Virus record (IMG/VR): IMGVR_UViG_3300032246_000398
Coordinates: 1-34,517 of that record
From: a virus
Strand: one strand, 5' to 3'
Length of the DNA stretch: 34,517 nt
Below, in pieces: positions 3,036 through 24,062 of this stretch; positions within the stretch are counted from its first letter, which is position 1, and each line of letters starts with the position of its first letter. The notes beneath the pieces were generated by a model. It made no database searches, was not told where the DNA came from, and saw only the letters and a list, made by a program, of their open reading frames with translations. Made by a program: the position numbers and the translations under genes.

Positions 3036-4001
3036 ATGGCTACCTCCCGCATATCAACTTCATCAATACTTCAGGGCTTCCCAAAAAGTAGGTCATTGCT
3101 TGCGGGAAATGCTTATTATGTTCCAACTACTCGTGGCTTATTTGGTGGTGGCAGCCAAGGTCCTACATATCTTTCCAACATTGATTATATAAACATAAAT
3201 TCAACTGGTAATTCTGCATCTTTTGGCAGTTTAACTGTAGTTAGAGGCGATGGTATTGCAAGTTGTTCTTCAACTACTCGAGGAGTATGGGCCAATGGAT
3301 ATGGTTCTGGCAGCAACTCATCTGTAATTGATTATGTAACAATTGCAAGTTTGGGTAATGCTACTAATTTTGGTACATCTTATCAAACAAGAAGAGCGAC
3401 TACTGGTGCTTCTAATGCAACTAGGGGTCTCTTTTTTGGTGGTTATGTTAGTTCTTATACAGATGTTATTGATTATATAACAATTGCGTCTGCTGGTAAT
3501 GCAACTTATTTTGGTAATGCAACCATTGTAGTATGTGCTACGGCTGGTATGGCTTCTCCAACTAGAGCACTATTTGCTGGTGGTTCAAACAGTGGACCAT
3601 ATAAAAGTTCTATAGATTATTTGACTATAGCATCTACTGGTAATGGTACAAGTTTTGGCAGTTTAACTGTTGCCAGAGATAATGTTAGTGGTACTTCATC
3701 GTCTACTAGAGGCGTAGCAATGGGTGGATATGATGGTAGTTTTTTAAGCACACTTGATTATGTAACCATTGCAACTACTGGAAATGCTACCGCTTTTGGA
3801 AGCCTAACAGGAGGAAAATTTGGTGGTTCAGGCACTTCTAATTCAATTAGAGGTGTTAATGGAGGTGGATATACTGGTTCTGTTATTGATACTATTGACT
3901 ATATAACAATAGCAACAACTGGTAATGGTACTGTTTTTGGAAATTTAACATCAGCCAGGTCTTATCTTGCTGCTTGCTCGGATTCACACGGCGGATTATA
4001 A
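3036..4001 (+). CDS. Kelch-like six-repeat beta-propeller protein, copy A
   Basis: 321 aa. Six repeats of about 45-50 residues, each running TRG-(L/V)-GG, then I-DY-TIA-TGN-T-FG-L, then a variable tail. The Gly-Gly pair, Tyr and hydrophobic strands fit kelch or galactose-oxidase-like propeller blades. The start ATG follows the preceding stop by 3 nt with no strong ribosome site, suggesting re-initiation. It has a same-length paralogue at 5083-6048. Propellers in this position would fit receptor or glycan binding; that role is inferred. Confidence 0.75.
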   Translation: MATSRISTSSILQGFPKSRSLLAGNAYYVPTTRGLFGGGSQGPTYLSNIDYININSTGNSASFGSLTVVRGDGIASCSSTTRGVWANGYGSGSNSSVIDYVTIASLGNATNFGTSYQTRRATTGASNATRGLFFGGYVSSYTDVIDYITIASAGNATYFGNATIVVCATAGMASPTRALFAGGSNSGPYKSSIDYLTIASTGNGTSFGSLTVARDNVSGTSSSTRGVAMGGYDGSFLSTLDYVTIATTGNATAFGSLTGGKFGGSGTSNSIRGVNGGGYTGSVIDTIDYITIATTGNGTVFGNLTSARSYLAACSDSHGGL

Positions 4002-5082: not shown

Positions 5083-6048
5083 ATGGGAATAACTAAGATA
5101 AGTACAGGTTCATCATTTACCAATTTAAACAAATCTACTAGTTTTCTTGTAGGAAATGATTATTATGGGTCAGTAGTAGCCAGAGGTATATTTTCTGGTG
5201 GCTGGGACCAAGGTAGAGGTACTCAATATGATAATATTGAATATATAACAATAGCCACCACTGGTAATGCAACCAATTTTGGAACTTTAGTTGCTAAAAA
5301 GGCTACCCACGCAGGTTGCGCTTCTGTTACAAGAGGTTTATTTTGTGGTGGATTAACAGCAGGTAATGCCACTACTACTGCTGTTGATTATATAACTATA
5401 GCAACTACTGGTAATGGTACATCATTTGGAAATCTTATTACTGTAATTGAGTATCGAACTGCTTGTAACTCAGCAACTAGGGGTATTATTGCTGGTGGTT
5501 CTTATGTAAACAATATAGAATATGTAACAATAGCATCCACTGGTAACGGTACTAATTTTGGAAATTTAACATTTCCTATATACACATCAGGAACTTCTTC
5601 TTCTACAAGAGGATTATTTATGGGTGGGTATTCAAGTTCTGGAGGAATGAAAACCCAAATAGATTATATAACAATAGCCTCAACTGGAAACGCTACTACT
5701 TTTGGAAATCTAAGTGTTGCTTGGGAAACCTGGCAAGGTGCTTGTTCTTCTGGAGTAAGAGCAGTCCAAGGTGGCGGTTATATATCAGCATTTACTACGG
5801 CTATGGAATATGTAACTATTGCCACTACTGGTAACTCAACTAACTTTGGTAGTTTAACTACTGCACGGGCTGGTTTAGCCGCTGTATCTTCTTCATTAAG
5901 AGGTGTATGGGGTGGCGGAAATAACTCAAGTGACGTTATGGATTATGTAACCATTGCTACAACTGGTAATGCTACAAGTTTTGGAAGTTTAACATTTGCA
6001 AGACGAGAACTTGCTGGTTGTTCAAATCAAAATGGCGGAGTTCAATAA
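5083..6048 (+). CDS. Kelch-like six-repeat beta-propeller protein, copy B
   Basis: 321 aa, exactly the length of copy A. Six repeats with the same core (TRG-F-GG, then YITIATTGNATNFG-L). Its N terminus (KISTGSSF) matches copy A (RISTSSIL). Repeat cores are conserved while loops between the Gly-Gly pair and the IDY/IEY strand differ, as expected when surface loops evolve quickly. It starts 3 nt after the preceding stop, like copy A. Tandem duplication with diverged loops suggests alternative receptor specificities; that function is inferred. Confidence 0.75.
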   Translation: MGITKISTGSSFTNLNKSTSFLVGNDYYGSVVARGIFSGGWDQGRGTQYDNIEYITIATTGNATNFGTLVAKKATHAGCASVTRGLFCGGLTAGNATTTAVDYITIATTGNGTSFGNLITVIEYRTACNSATRGIIAGGSYVNNIEYVTIASTGNGTNFGNLTFPIYTSGTSSSTRGLFMGGYSSSGGMKTQIDYITIASTGNATTFGNLSVAWETWQGACSSGVRAVQGGGYISAFTTAMEYVTIATTGNSTNFGSLTTARAGLAAVSSSLRGVWGGGNNSSDVMDYVTIATTGNATSFGSLTFARRELAGCSNQNGGVQ

Positions 6049-16291: not shown

Positions 16292-16302
16292 AAATAGATA
16301 AA

Positions 16303-16320
16303 CCCCCGCCGAAGCAGGGG
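16303..16320 (-). terminator. Hairpin terminator between converging operons
   Basis: CCCC at 16303 pairs with GGGG at 16317-16320, plus GC/GC and one C-A mismatch around a CGAA loop on the + strand (TTCG on the - strand). On the - strand the hairpin is followed by TTTATCTATTTTTATTTTT, a good U tract, so it mainly ends the leftward operon. On the + strand the T run is poor, but it sits 12 nt after the sigma-like gene and may work both ways. Confidence 0.75.
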
Positions 16321-16334
16321 CTATCCGTATTTAA

Positions 16335-19945: not shown

Positions 19946-20015
19946 GCGGAAATCTTCCGCCTTACCCCGTGCCCTATGGTGTCGTGAACACCGCGCCCCC
20001 GTCAAGGGTTAGGGC
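19946..20015 (-). ncRNA. Three-way-junction RNA element, copy 1
   Basis: On the + strand: P1 GCCCTA (19971-19976) with TAGGGC (20010-20015); P2 GGTG (19978-19981) with CACC (19989-19992), 7-nt loop; P3 CCC (19998-20000) with GGG (20006-20008). Transcribed on the - strand, so the P2 loop reads UUCACGA. A perfect hairpin GCGGAA-ATC-TTCCGC (19946-19960) lies between the element and the ribosome site of the 20-aa gene. The preceding gene stops 23 nt away. Confidence 0.65.
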
Positions 20016-20037
20016 TTTGTTTCGTATAACAATTTCG

Positions 20038-20196
20038 TTATCTATTGCGCCACCTTTTCCAAGCCTTACGCCCTGCAATTACTAGCACGGCAAGGATTAA
20101 GGCACGATAAGGGGCGTAATAATCCCCTAGGTAGCCCTCAATAACTAGCCCGTAATCGTCTAGTGAAATGCTGAATAGGTTTTGAAAGTCAATCAT
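20038..20196 (-). CDS. Small one-TM membrane protein
   Basis: 52 aa, TAATG overlap with the zinc-ribbon gene upstream. An acidic N-terminal half with Tyr (LGDYYAPY), TM helix YRALILAVLVIAG and a basic tail RKAWKRWRNR. Positive-inside rule puts the C terminus in the cytoplasm. Function unknown. Confidence 0.6.
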   Translation of the reverse strand: MIDFQNLFSISLDDYGLVIEGYLGDYYAPYRALILAVLVIAGRKAWKRWRNR

Positions 20197-20354
20197 TATC
20201 TAACCGCCTTTCTATGATTAGCACGGGCACACTTACCGCAAACTTTGTGCGCTGTAAACTTAACAAGTAAGTCATTCTCGTCGCCACATTGCACGCATTG
20301 GCTTGATGTATCTTTAAAAGCCTCAATAAAGGCTTGAGTGCTGTCTTTACTCAT
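20196..20354 (-). CDS. Small zinc-ribbon protein
   Basis: 52 aa. C20, C23 (CVQCGDEN) and C39, C42 (VCGKCAR) form a classic zinc ribbon with basic C terminus (HRKAVR), a shape that can bind nucleic acid. GACAGGGG precedes the ATG, and copy 2 of the RNA element lies just upstream. Confidence 0.65.
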   Translation of the reverse strand: MSKDSTQAFIEAFKDTSSQCVQCGDENDLLVKFTAHKVCGKCARANHRKAVR

Positions 20355-20382
20355 TCTTTCCCCTGTCTTTCTTTTAAGGTTT

Positions 20383-20455
20383 GCGGGTGTCTCCCGCCTT
20401 ACCTTGTGCCCCGCTCAGGTCTTGAGCCTGTGCCCTCTGTTTAAGGAGGCGGGGC
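20383..20455 (-). ncRNA. Three-way-junction RNA element, copy 2
   Basis: P1 GCCCCGC (20408-20414) with GCGGGGC (20449-20455); P2 CAGG (20416-20419) with CCTG (20427-20430), 7-nt loop reading CUCAAGA on the transcribed strand; P3 CCTC (20434-20437) with GAGG (20446-20449), sharing one G with P1. A second hairpin GCGGG-TGTCT-CCCGC (20383-20397) follows toward the next gene. The upstream gene's TAG stop (20463-20465) lies 7 nt before P1. Confidence 0.7.
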
Positions 20456-20462
20456 GGTCTTG

Positions 20463-20648
20463 CTAGTTTCCTATTTTACCGCCGATAATTACTCTTCCTA
20501 ATTCAAAATCTCTCATAACTTTAGCCAATAATTCAATTTGTCCATTGTAGAATTGTCGGCTTTCTGGATTATTGAGATTTTCCATAACTTTAGAGTGCAA
20601 ATACCAAGCCTCTTCTTCTATGTATTCCCTAGTTATCTCTTTATTCAT
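20463..20648 (-). CDS. Hypothetical helical protein
   Basis: 61 aa from ATG 20648, right after the preceding stop, with GGGGTG upstream; an in-frame start at 20663 inside the previous gene is less likely. Charged helices (EITREYIEEEAWYLHSKVM). No family recognised. Confidence 0.6.
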   Translation of the reverse strand: MNKEITREYIEEEAWYLHSKVMENLNNPESRQFYNGQIELLAKVMRDFELGRVIIGGKIGN

Positions 20649-20650
20649 TA

Positions 20651-20833
20651 TTACACCCCACAAGCCTTCAAGAATAGTTCACGATTAAAGCGTGGGTTAG
20701 TGGTTTCTAACTTATCTGCTAACTTACTAGCAAACGGAGACCTTGCGCCGTTGATTGTCCAATCGTCGCCCGTATAAGCGTCTTCCATTTCCTTTATTGC
20801 CTCCGCAATAAGTTCATAGTCTTTCTTAGTCAT
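20651..20833 (-). CDS. Small conserved phage protein, NPRF-FLKACG family
   Basis: 60 aa. Ends TTNPRFNRELFLKACGV, a C-terminal motif found in many small phage and plasmid proteins of unknown function; the middle has FASKLADKLE. ATAGGAG precedes the ATG and RNA element copy 3 lies upstream. Confidence 0.7.
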   Translation of the reverse strand: MTKKDYELIAEAIKEMEDAYTGDDWTINGARSPFASKLADKLETTNPRFNRELFLKACGV

Positions 20834-20852
20834 TCTTTTCTCCTATCAATTG

Positions 20853-20925
20853 GAAGGGGCATTGTTGCCCCTTCTCGTGCCCTCCGTAGGTCTTAAACCT
20901 GCGCCGATTAAATCGGGCGGAGGGC
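20853..20925 (-). ncRNA. Three-way-junction RNA element, copy 3
   Basis: P1 GCCCTCCG (20879-20886) with CGGAGGGC (20918-20925), the longest P1 of the set; P2 AGG (20888-20890) with CCT (20898-20900), 7-nt loop reading UUUAAGA on the transcribed strand; P3 CCGAT (20904-20908) with ATCGG (20912-20916). The accessory hairpin is a perfect 9-bp GAAGGGGCA-TTGT-TGCCCCTTC (20853-20874). The upstream TAG stop is 7 nt from P1. Confidence 0.75.
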
Positions 20926-20932
20926 GGTGTTG

Positions 20933-21145
20933 CTACTTTTGTGCTTCTCTGCTTGGTGGTGTGAAATAATCGGACAATTTGGTAACTGTTGAGAGATAAT
21001 CCTCTGCCTCTTGCATTTCAATTTGAAGGCGTAAATCTGCTCCTTCTTTGGTGGCGTAGGTATAAACCTTCTCTAAGTTAAAAGAAGGGTTAGAGATTAC
21101 TGCCTGCCATTTACCTGCTTCTGTTTGTCGTGTCTGGTATTTCAT
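20933..21145 (-). CDS. Hypothetical small protein
   Basis: 70 aa from ATG 21145, with GACAGGAG upstream; an in-frame TTG at 21166 would read through the ribosome site. Begins with strands KYQTRQTEAGKWQAVIS and has a helix EGADLRLQIEMQEAEDYL. The frame is open back to the stop of the preceding gene, 37 codons upstream. Confidence 0.6.
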   Translation of the reverse strand: MKYQTRQTEAGKWQAVISNPSFNLEKVYTYATKEGADLRLQIEMQEAEDYLSTVTKLSDYFTPPSREAQK

Positions 21146-21202
21146 TTCTTGCTCCTGTCTTTGCAAATCTTGGGTGAGTATTTCCCGCCCTAGTAATTGC
21201 GT

Positions 21203-21249
21203 GCCCCCTGTCGGTCTTGAGCCGTCGCCGTCGTTAGCGGGCGGGGGGC
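21203..21249 (-). ncRNA. Three-way-junction RNA element, copy 4
   Basis: P1 GCCCCC (21203-21208) with GGGGGC (21244-21249); P2 CGG (21212-21214) with CCG (21222-21224), loop CUCAAGA on the transcribed strand; P3 CCG (21228-21230) with CGG (21238-21240), loop CUAACGA. The upstream gene's TAG stop is at 21257-21259, 7 nt from P1. The accessory hairpin is weaker here (GGG/CCC around 21172-21190). Confidence 0.7.
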
Positions 21250-21256
21250 GGTAGTT

Positions 21257-21490
21257 CTAGTTCTTTTTAATTGCCTTAATCTGTGCTAATTTGTCCATTC
21301 TTGCATAAACTATTTCTGCTGTGCCGTCGTAACTTTCTGAGGCTGTGCCGTCCTTGCCCTCTGTCCAAACTAGGGCATTGCCTTTGAATATCTTGCCGTC
21401 TTCTGAGTAGAAAGTGCTAACGATTAATGAAGCGGCTTCAATATCTGTGCACTTTGCTTCTACGATATTCCCTGATTTAACTGTAAACAT
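21257..21490 (-). CDS. First gene of the leftward operon, hypothetical
   Basis: 77 aa. ACAGGAG precedes the ATG. N-terminal strands (FTVKSGNIVEAKC), central VSTFYSEDGKIFKGNALVW, basic C terminus (IKAIKKN). No family recognised. Being closest to the leftward promoter it should be expressed first. Confidence 0.65.
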   Translation of the reverse strand: MFTVKSGNIVEAKCTDIEAASLIVSTFYSEDGKIFKGNALVWTEGKDGTASESYDGTAEIVYARMDKLAQIKAIKKN

Positions 21491-21543
21491 TTTATTTCTC
21501 CTGTTCCTGCCTTTGCGTGGTTGCTTGGGCTAGTAATGTAAAC

Positions 21544-21570
21544 AATATATGCGGGGCTAAGCATAGTCAA
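21544..21570 (-). promoter_or_regulatory. Leftward promoter for the early operon
   Basis: On the - strand TTGACT (21565-21570, 5 of 6) and TATATT (21544-21549, 5 of 6) with 15-bp spacing; TATTGT two bases further gives 17-bp spacing. It lies about 55 nt upstream of the first leftward gene and next to repeated operator-like sites. Confidence 0.6.
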
Positions 21571-22193: not shown

Positions 22194-24062
22194 ATGGGAC
22201 GCAAACCAGGGATACAAAATATACCAAAGGGCGAGGCCCAAGAAAAAGTTTTAATACAGTTAGCCCAAGGTTCTACCATTACAGCAGCCTTAGCATCCGT
22301 TGGTAGGAATGATGTTACCTTTAGGCAATGGTCTATGAATGACCCAGCCTTTAAAGAAAGAGCAGATAAAGCCCGCCTTCAAGGTAAGGGAGTTATTGCT
22401 GACTTAGGGGATTTAAAAAACTTATCTTTCCCTGACTTCTCAGAGCAGTTCCTAGATACTAAGTTATTTCCTCATCACCTTGACTGGATAGATTTAATAG
22501 AGGGTCGCCCGCCATCTTGGCTACACCCTGCTATGACTTACGAACAGGCAGCCACAAATCGTATTCTGATTAATGTGCCACCTGAACACGCCAAGTCTAC
22601 TACTTTAACGATTAACTACGTCTTGTATCAGATTGTTACCAACCCTAACTCAAGAGTAATCATAGTCTCTAAGACTCAGGGTATGGCTAGAAAATTCTTA
22701 GGTGCAATTAAGACTCGTCTTAGCCACCCCGCTTTTATTAAACTCCAGACCGCCTTTGGTCCTAATGGAGGATATAAGGCTGATGCTACTCAATGGTCAG
22801 CAGATATGATTTACCTAGGCACTGGAAGAGACTCTGGTGAGAAGGACCCTACGGTACAGGCTTTAGGATTTGGCTCTCAGATTTACGGTGCACGAGCAGA
22901 CCTGATTATCCTAGATGACGTTGTGATGAACTCCAATGCCCACGAATGGGAAAAGCAAATTGAATGGCTTCAAAAAGAAGTTATCACACGGCTGGGGCGG
23001 CACGGAAAATTACTTATAGTAGGAACCCGTGTCTCCTCAATTGATTTATATAAAATGATTAGAGATGGTGGACAGTGGACTGGAGGCAAGTCTCCTTTCA
23101 CATACTTCTCTCAACCAGCAGTTTTAGAATTTGATGAGAACCCAGCCAATTGGAAAACCTTATGGCCTTGGACTGATAGACCAGAGGGCGAAAAAGATGA
23201 AGAAACAAAAGAGGGCTTGTACCCTAAATGGGATGGCACCTCGCTATTTACAAGACGCTCTGAAGTGGCCCCATCTGTCTGGGCTATGGTCTACCAACAA
23301 GAAGATGTCACAGAGAATTCAATCTTTTCTCCAACCTGTGTCGCAGGTAGCGTTAATGGAATGCGAAAAAGAGGACCTCTCAAGCCTGGAGTCCCAGGAC
23401 ATCCAAAGCATTGTGAATCTACATATACAGTTATTGGCCTCGACCCAGCAATGGCGGGAGCAACAGGAGCGGTAGTTGTTTCTTACAACCGTGCTGACGG
23501 CAAGATATATGTTTTAGATTGCGTCAATATGACTGAGCCTACCCCAGCCAAGATACAAAATTTAATTGAAGAGTGGGTTGAGAAGTACAAACCCCAAGAA
23601 CTAAGAATTGAAATTAATGCTCACCAGAAGGCTTACGCCCTAGATGATGTATTAAGAAACTATCTAGCATCACACGGCTGTCAACTTAATTCACACTTCA
23701 CAGGTAAGAACAAGTGGGATGTAGGGTTCGGCGTTGCTTCTATGGCAAGCCTATTTGGTTCTACTAGGGATGGTAGATTCCAAGATAACAACATAATTGA
23801 ACTACCTAGCAATGAAGGCTCTGAAGGTCTTAAGACGCTAGTGCAAGAATTAATTACTTGGAAGCCTGACACAAAGAATCCAACTGACTGTGTGATGGCT
23901 CTATGGTTTGCAATTATCCGTATCCGCGAGTTAATGCAAAGGTCAAGTAAGGTTGGGCAATACCAAACAAATCGTTGGGCTACTAAAGCACAAACTGCTA
24001 GACGTGGTTCACTTAACTTAGATGATGCCTTTGCAGAGCAATGGGCAGAAACTTATAACTAA
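22194..24062 (+). CDS. terL: Large terminase, with small-terminase-like HTH at the N terminus
   Basis: 622 aa. Residues about 15-65 (EKVLIQLAQGSTITAALASVG, then FRQWSMNDPAFKERADKAR with the usual spacing) look like the DNA-binding HTH of small terminases. The ATPase follows: Walker A-like PPEHAKST at 129-136 and Walker B LIILDD at 237-242. The RNase H-like nuclease has D417 in VIGLDPAMAG, an acidic residue near 471 (RIEINAH) and an Asp near 565 (TDCVMALWFA). It packages DNA into the prohead through the portal encoded downstream. AGGGA lies 8 nt before the ATG. Confidence 0.93.
   Translation: MGRKPGIQNIPKGEAQEKVLIQLAQGSTITAALASVGRNDVTFRQWSMNDPAFKERADKARLQGKGVIADLGDLKNLSFPDFSEQFLDTKLFPHHLDWIDLIEGRPPSWLHPAMTYEQAATNRILINVPPEHAKSTTLTINYVLYQIVTNPNSRVIIVSKTQGMARKFLGAIKTRLSHPAFIKLQTAFGPNGGYKADATQWSADMIYLGTGRDSGEKDPTVQALGFGSQIYGARADLIILDDVVMNSNAHEWEKQIEWLQKEVITRLGRHGKLLIVGTRVSSIDLYKMIRDGGQWTGGKSPFTYFSQPAVLEFDENPANWKTLWPWTDRPEGEKDEETKEGLYPKWDGTSLFTRRSEVAPSVWAMVYQQEDVTENSIFSPTCVAGSVNGMRKRGPLKPGVPGHPKHCESTYTVIGLDPAMAGATGAVVVSYNRADGKIYVLDCVNMTEPTPAKIQNLIEEWVEKYKPQELRIEINAHQKAYALDDVLRNYLASHGCQLNSHFTGKNKWDVGFGVASMASLFGSTRDGRFQDNNIIELPSNEGSEGLKTLVQELITWKPDTKNPTDCVMALWFAIIRIRELMQRSSKVGQYQTNRWATKAQTARRGSLNLDDAFAEQWAETYN

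Follow-up and report, generated by a model that had tools for sequence, protein, structure and literature searches.

What role is played by an RNA structure that recurs four times in the gaps between the small genes of one viral operon? The locus that raises this question lies in the DNA of a freshwater phage, 34,517 nucleotides long (IMG/VR record IMGVR_UViG_3300032246_000398), the whole of which is called the window here, where a leftward operon of small genes is found upstream of the terminase gene (22194–24062). Four copies of the structure separate the operon's first units: one element is present in every non-overlapping gap of genes 1–7, and none in the promoter-proximal leader. The initial annotation had located these copies on the minus strand and described their pairings; coordinates, strand and pairings were all confirmed, and model searches place the copies far beyond chance.

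The complete unit reads, in order, stop codon, spacer, P1, one base, P3, a C followed by about two bases, P2 with its 7-nt loop, P1', AC, a second hairpin (P4), ribosome site and start. Two models are used to score the copies: R2, built from elements only, and R3, for which 17 real tRNAs stripped of their anticodon arm were the sole input. On the minus strand, a sigma-70-like promoter predicted from sequence only (TTGACT, 17 nt, TATTGT; 21542–21570) precedes gene 1 (21257–21490, 77 aa, no assigned function), whose TAG stop lies 7 nt before copy 4 (21203–21249), the first to be transcribed. This tRNA-like junction consists of P1 GCCCCC/GGGGGC, P3 and P2 CGG-CTCAAGA-CCG, followed by the invariant AC (21201–21202; by tRNA numbering A73, the discriminator, and C74) and P4 (21163–21200; −12.4 kcal/mol, z −2.5). 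It scores 58.3 bits with R2, and R3 matches 21201–21249 in register. When flanks are included in the folding, copy 4 is the only one whose minimum-energy fold competes with the junction, so its structure rests on comparison. The ORF of gene 2 (20933–21166) is listed with a TTG start, and an in-frame ATG near 21145 carries the ribosome site; its stop lies 7 nt before copy 3 (20879–20925), which has P1 GCCCTCCG/CGGAGGGC, P3 CCGAT/ATCGG and P2 AGG-TTTAAGA-CCT (fold z −4.5; R2 59.5 bits; R3 match at 20877–20925, the second-best in the window), then AC (20877–20878) and P4 (20852–20876; −16.7 kcal/mol, z −5.0). Genes 3 (20651–20833, 60 aa) and 4 (20463–20663, 66 aa as listed) overlap and form one unit between copies 3 and 2, with the gene 4 stop again 7 nt before copy 2 (20408–20455). 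Here P1 is GCCCCGC/GCGGGGC, P3 follows and P2 is CAGG-CTCAAGA-CCTG (R2 61.0 bits; R3 match at 20406–20455, the best in the window), with AC at 20406–20407 and P4 at 20376–20405 (−13.7 kcal/mol, z −4.2). Genes 5 (20196–20354) and 6 (20038–20196), of 52 aa each, likewise overlap as one unit between copies 2 and 1; the gene 6 stop stands 22 nt before copy 1 (19971–20015), which is built from P1 GCCCTA/TAGGGC, P3 and P2 GGTG-TTCACGA-CACC (R2 45.7 bits; R3 match at 19969–20015) and is followed by AC (19969–19970) and a predicted P4 (19939–19968). A second hairpin had earlier been seen after copies 1–3; the hairpins are there, but the limit to three was wrong, as all four copies have one, starting right after AC. 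At the leftward operon's end a GC hairpin followed by a T run (16300–16330) is likely the operon terminator. Elsewhere in the window, two genes of 321 aa (3036–4001 and 5083–6048) both match phrog_19111 and possibly represent a duplicated gene.

Loci for comparison were gathered from terminase relatives and by searching viral contigs with two RNA patterns. A covariance model built from 13 relatives found 104 copies in 97 loci and a second model found 132, while models R1 and R2 together yielded about 280 copies in the gathered loci, 174 of them distinct after filtering. In alignment A7, which holds 104 distinct rows, 97.8% of paired cells can pair, compared to 75% in shuffles, and 300 cells are changed on both sides, a number that falls to 76 in shuffles and does not exceed 45 with partners slid by 1–3 columns. 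The covariation score is 0.551, slid versions reach at most 0.095, and covariation is strong in all three stems. The claim of a structured, covarying RNA is therefore borne out. The initial annotation had also matched the structure to no riboswitch or ribozyme class and had proposed a covariance model as the means of checking this; the searches returned relatives in number, and no Rfam family matched the window above the gathering cut-off, lax searches giving below-threshold matches only. Among whole phage records, 17 of 21 carry one to four copies, clustered and on a single strand. Among cultured phages infecting Ca. Planktophila (PMC10202952), LanE43-AprE7 has three copies and AprF5 two, indicating that the host of the freshwater group is very probably a Nanopelagicales actinobacterium. 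In bacterial chromosomes, 44 pattern matches among genome contigs look like chance, the top ones having broken or displaced stems.

Comparison of these copies defines which parts of the unit are constant. The spacer between stop and P1 is 5–9 nt in 140 of 213 copies, with a mode of 7–8. P1 has 7 bp in 89 of 120 parsed copies, and the partition between P1 and P2 varies while their sum hardly does: counted from the P2 loop, P1' ends after 11 or 12 nt in all 164 parsed copies under a parser that permitted only those two values, and in 118 of 120 under an earlier parse that permitted 10 and 13 as well. The AC after P1' is found in 154 of 164 parsed distinct copies, and G1-C72 in 99 of the 104 rows of A7. 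The initial annotation had treated GGGCAC as invariant, which is correct for the AC but not for the GGGC, replaced in relatives by GGGU, CGAC or CCGC, among others. Likewise, the 7-nt length of the P2 loop was described correctly and its consensus YUYAMGA too narrowly, since the family includes UUCACGA, CUCAAGA, UUCACAA, UGCGAGA, AGCRAGA and canonical T-loops. P4 is present in nearly all copies (mean z of the region −2.8 over 120 distinct copies). The structure does not resemble an intrinsic terminator, as no U run follows the hairpin and AC then P4 are found instead. Its placement is generic: elements adjoin 79 upstream and at least 62 downstream protein clusters, many of them unrelated, and are thus not tied to one gene function. 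By model, an element is present in 239 of the 318 gaps that measure at least 60 nt in copy-bearing regions; among 40 listed gaps without one, promoter leaders, missed copies and apparent errors of gene calling account for many. In freshwater copies, stops at most 9 nt before the element are UAG in 82 cases, UAA in 57 and UGA in 2, while about 32% of long ORFs end in UGA; this scarcity is lineage-specific, since Streptomyces relatives use UGA there, and a release-factor effect behind it was dropped for the same reason. Some loci (L019, L024, L018, L014 and others) have an extra small hairpin in the spacer, e.g. GUGAG-GCAA-CUCAC or GUC-UUAA-GAC, and one lineage (L066, L067, L099, L101, L111) has further tandem hairpins after the element, CTTGACAAG..CGTCAAG and CTATGGTAGGCTACGCCTATC.

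The identity of the structure was suggested by four relatives (L158, L009, L180 and L200) in which a canonical 5-bp tRNA T-arm stands in the place of P2, and the idea that the element is a tRNA mimic was then tested in both directions. R3 placed all three real tRNA genes at the top in 1.24 Mb, and elements in register made up 15 of its 22 other matches, an enrichment with a naive binomial p of ~1e-29, or 4e-19 by groups. Within the window, copies 2 and 3 are its top two matches, both in register; the scores are weak, indicating that the window copies are diverged. Conversely, R2 gave 7 weak matches over 396 actinobacterial genomes, 4 of which fall on the T-arm/acceptor 3' half of tRNA-Arg genes, although these four tRNAs are near-identical and amount to close to one event, and the match partly pairs the anticodon region by chance. 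With a test set that included phages carrying the canonical form, all 8 of the 8 matches to R2 were canonical elements in register. The element is therefore tRNA-like: P1 is the acceptor stem, usually of 7 bp; P2 is the T-arm, with a loop-to-P1-end distance of 11–12 nt compared to 12 in tRNA; AC corresponds to A73 and C74; and P3 occupies the D-arm position. The three-way junction of the initial annotation is thus real, but its key identity, an acceptor/T-arm minihelix formed by P1 and P2, had been missed. What is absent is the anticodon arm: the window elements are only 45–48 nt long, and between the acceptor halves there is, besides the T-arm, only P3 or a short linker. A search of the window with ARAGORN gives no tRNA, and the 3' CCA is not encoded, AC being followed by G, U or A (C at position 75 in 0 of 120 parsed copies) and by P4. 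The T-loop UUCRANY is present in L158, L009, L180, L200, L066, Endor1 and Damien, while the UUCACGA and CUCAAGA of the window and of most freshwater copies are derived forms. Most T-loops of the freshwater group lack A58 and resemble UNRN/GNRA turns with a 3' bulge. In two loci a single tRNA gene lies directly upstream of the terminase on the opposite strand (L035, 9802–9874, Trp; L057, 9914–9985, Arg).

Model R1 found no match in 963 kb of Streptomyces-type relatives, where R3 afterwards found canonical forms; R3 thus led to these phages and then to cultured phages with canonical elements. In Endor1, eight intergenic gaps contain an acceptor, a GG-containing linker, a T-arm with canonical T-loop, AC, P4 and a ribosome site. 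Together, Endor1 and Alsaber (Streptomyces), Damien (Mycobacterium) and Hubbs (Microbacterium) have 22 elements in 32 gaps of 75–260 nt. These canonical relatives share the T-loop UUCGAGU, the GG linker, AC and P4, with stems of mostly 5+6 bp. By blastn, 140 phage records contain 80% or more of one canonical element, and the records inspected among them carry no annotation at the element.

The combination of tRNA-likeness with placement in mRNA right after stop codons points to RNase P, the reader of acceptor/T-arm stacks in precursors. Substrates of this enzyme include phage M3 RNA, phage C4 RNA and mRNAs; its protein contacts the leader at −8 to −3, and the 3' RCC base-pairs with the enzyme's RNA (review, PMC11143913). 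We consider it probable, by a little, that RNase P cuts 5' of P1 and that actinophage early mRNA is punctuated in this way with anticodon-armless tRNA mimics. In such a model, tRNA mimics would be built into the polycistronic early mRNA between translational units, and host RNase P would recognise the acceptor/T-arm stack and cut 5' of the first P1 base, usually 5–9 nt after the upstream stop. The downstream message would then begin with a stable tRNA-like cap plus P4, and in the punctuated operon every unit could be translated and degraded separately. An RNase processing signal was one of the options in the initial annotation and fits this reading, in which we infer both the cleavage and its effect on expression. 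Features consistent with an RNase P substrate are the single-stranded leader that the spacer provides, G1-C72, the unpaired N-1 and N73, and A73-C74. Others fit poorly, namely the lack of C75, the diverged freshwater T-loops, the lack of U at −1 (in copies with a stop nearby, cluster-weighted counts give only A or C at N-1, which sits opposite A73) and the immediate P4. Since position 75 is not C and P4 starts there, the RCC contact with RNase P would be only partial, and a P4 that begins right behind C74 may obstruct tRNA enzymes. RNase Z is an unlikely processing enzyme, as P4 leaves no free trailer.

The main rival is a tRNA mimic that is not cut and that, as a barrier, would together with P4 keep exonucleases away from the 3' end upstream, the 5' end downstream or both, in a REP-like manner, or would bind another tRNA-handling factor. 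Very stable GC-rich folds, a P4 in nearly all copies and a position right after the stop codon would all suit a barrier; it would, however, need no T-loop, discriminator or 11–12 nt ruler, and since the conservation obeys tRNA rules we regard this explanation as unlikely, if the one to be taken most seriously. Recognition by a protein of phage or host origin with control over early genes or antitermination, as at boxB- or put-like sites, is a good deal more doubtful. The freshwater loop does have the appearance of a U-turn or GNRA-like fold with a bulged A (G2 is accompanied by A5 in 30 of 30 cases, and pair 1-6 is present in 139 of 164), and two adjacent helices lie 2 nt apart, but the same arm is a true T-arm in the canonical relatives, and the copies are intergenic, several per operon, with none in the leader of the window's operon. 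It is very improbable that the mimics act as decoys or sponges occupying RNase P or host tRNA-targeting defence nucleases; several copies per early operon would serve that end, yet neither tight intercistronic placement nor a constant layout of P4 and ribosome site would be needed for it.

No more can be said for a stimulator of stop-codon readthrough or frameshifting, in which the structure would stand at the ribosome entrance with the stop in the A site, and we rate it a shade lower still. The 5–9 nt spacing, the UAG-rich and UGA-poor freshwater stops at that distance and the frame that stays open from the TAG before copy 4 into gene 2 speak for such a stimulator. Against it, the stop-to-P1 distance modulo 3 is distributed 32/48/54, the extensions are unconserved and often end inside the element, and Streptomyces relatives have UGA there; the idea was tested and rejected, as an open frame after the stop is not conserved. 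The ligand-sensing riboswitch for several genes at once, offered in the initial annotation and suggested by a compact junction in 5' UTRs, is hardly credible because the elements adjoin so many unrelated genes with no single-pathway association, in addition to their tRNA identity and the lack of any visible alternative expression platform.

RNase P punctuation has known counterparts against which the elements can be set. In mitochondrial polycistronic RNA, tRNA structures between genes mark RNase P cut sites; those tRNAs are functional, whereas the phage elements lack the anticodon arm. The Rfam tRNA family and tRNA genes share with the elements the acceptor stem, T-arm, G1-C72 and A73, and differ in the same respect. 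Model substrates of RNase P, consisting of an acceptor stem and T-arm, have the same minimal parts and T-arm/acceptor ruler; the elements differ in being natural, in having a P3 hairpin or GG linker, in ending in AC rather than ACCA and in the P4 behind. RNase P also cuts polycistronic operon mRNAs of bacteria (Alifano 1994; Li and Altman 2003, via PMC11143913), though not at a repeated dedicated element like that of the phage units. The phage C4 antisense RNA of P1/P7 (Rfam RF01695) and phage M3 RNA are likewise phage RNAs cut by RNase P (PMC11143913), but these are small RNAs, whereas the elements described here occur as several copies per operon and separate mRNA cistrons. In neither the operon region nor the four relatives searched did C4 give a match at E ≤ 10, and it gave none in the window at the gathering threshold. 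Among described repeats, the SAS/ESAS of cluster K mycobacteriophages come closest. They are found upstream of many small phage gene starts, consist of 13-bp GGGATAGGAGCCC and 17-bp inverted repeats, and were described without a function and not as tRNA-like (PMC3203893); their upstream placement is alike, while sequence and structure differ from those of the elements.

Mimics of tRNA, RNase P substrates and mitochondrial tRNA punctuation are already known parts. A description of these actinophage elements was not found in the openly accessible literature, most subscription journals lying outside that scope, and what is openly searchable appears to contain no account of a repeated anticodon-armless tRNA mimic as the standard element between genes in early operons of actinophages. 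The wider proposal, that in actinophages of several genera this mimic is the standard punctuation of early operons, with host RNase P or another tRNA-handling enzyme cutting the transcript into units, seems to us evenly balanced. If true, it would be the phage analogue of tRNA punctuation in mitochondria, carried by well over a hundred sequenced phages and apparently left unannotated, would explain how gaps of about 80–110 nt between early genes are filled in many actinophages, and would define a general scheme of phage mRNA processing resting on a tRNA maturation enzyme. The proposal is directly testable in the cultured hosts S. coelicolor, M. smegmatis and Ca. Planktophila. Annotators gain an element that can be marked, and the family provides a natural gradation that runs from tRNA-like elements to diverged mimics. 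Between the leftward early genes of Streptomyces phage Stella (L098, 41104–44422), long nested hairpins that R1 does not match are possibly another intergenic RNA.
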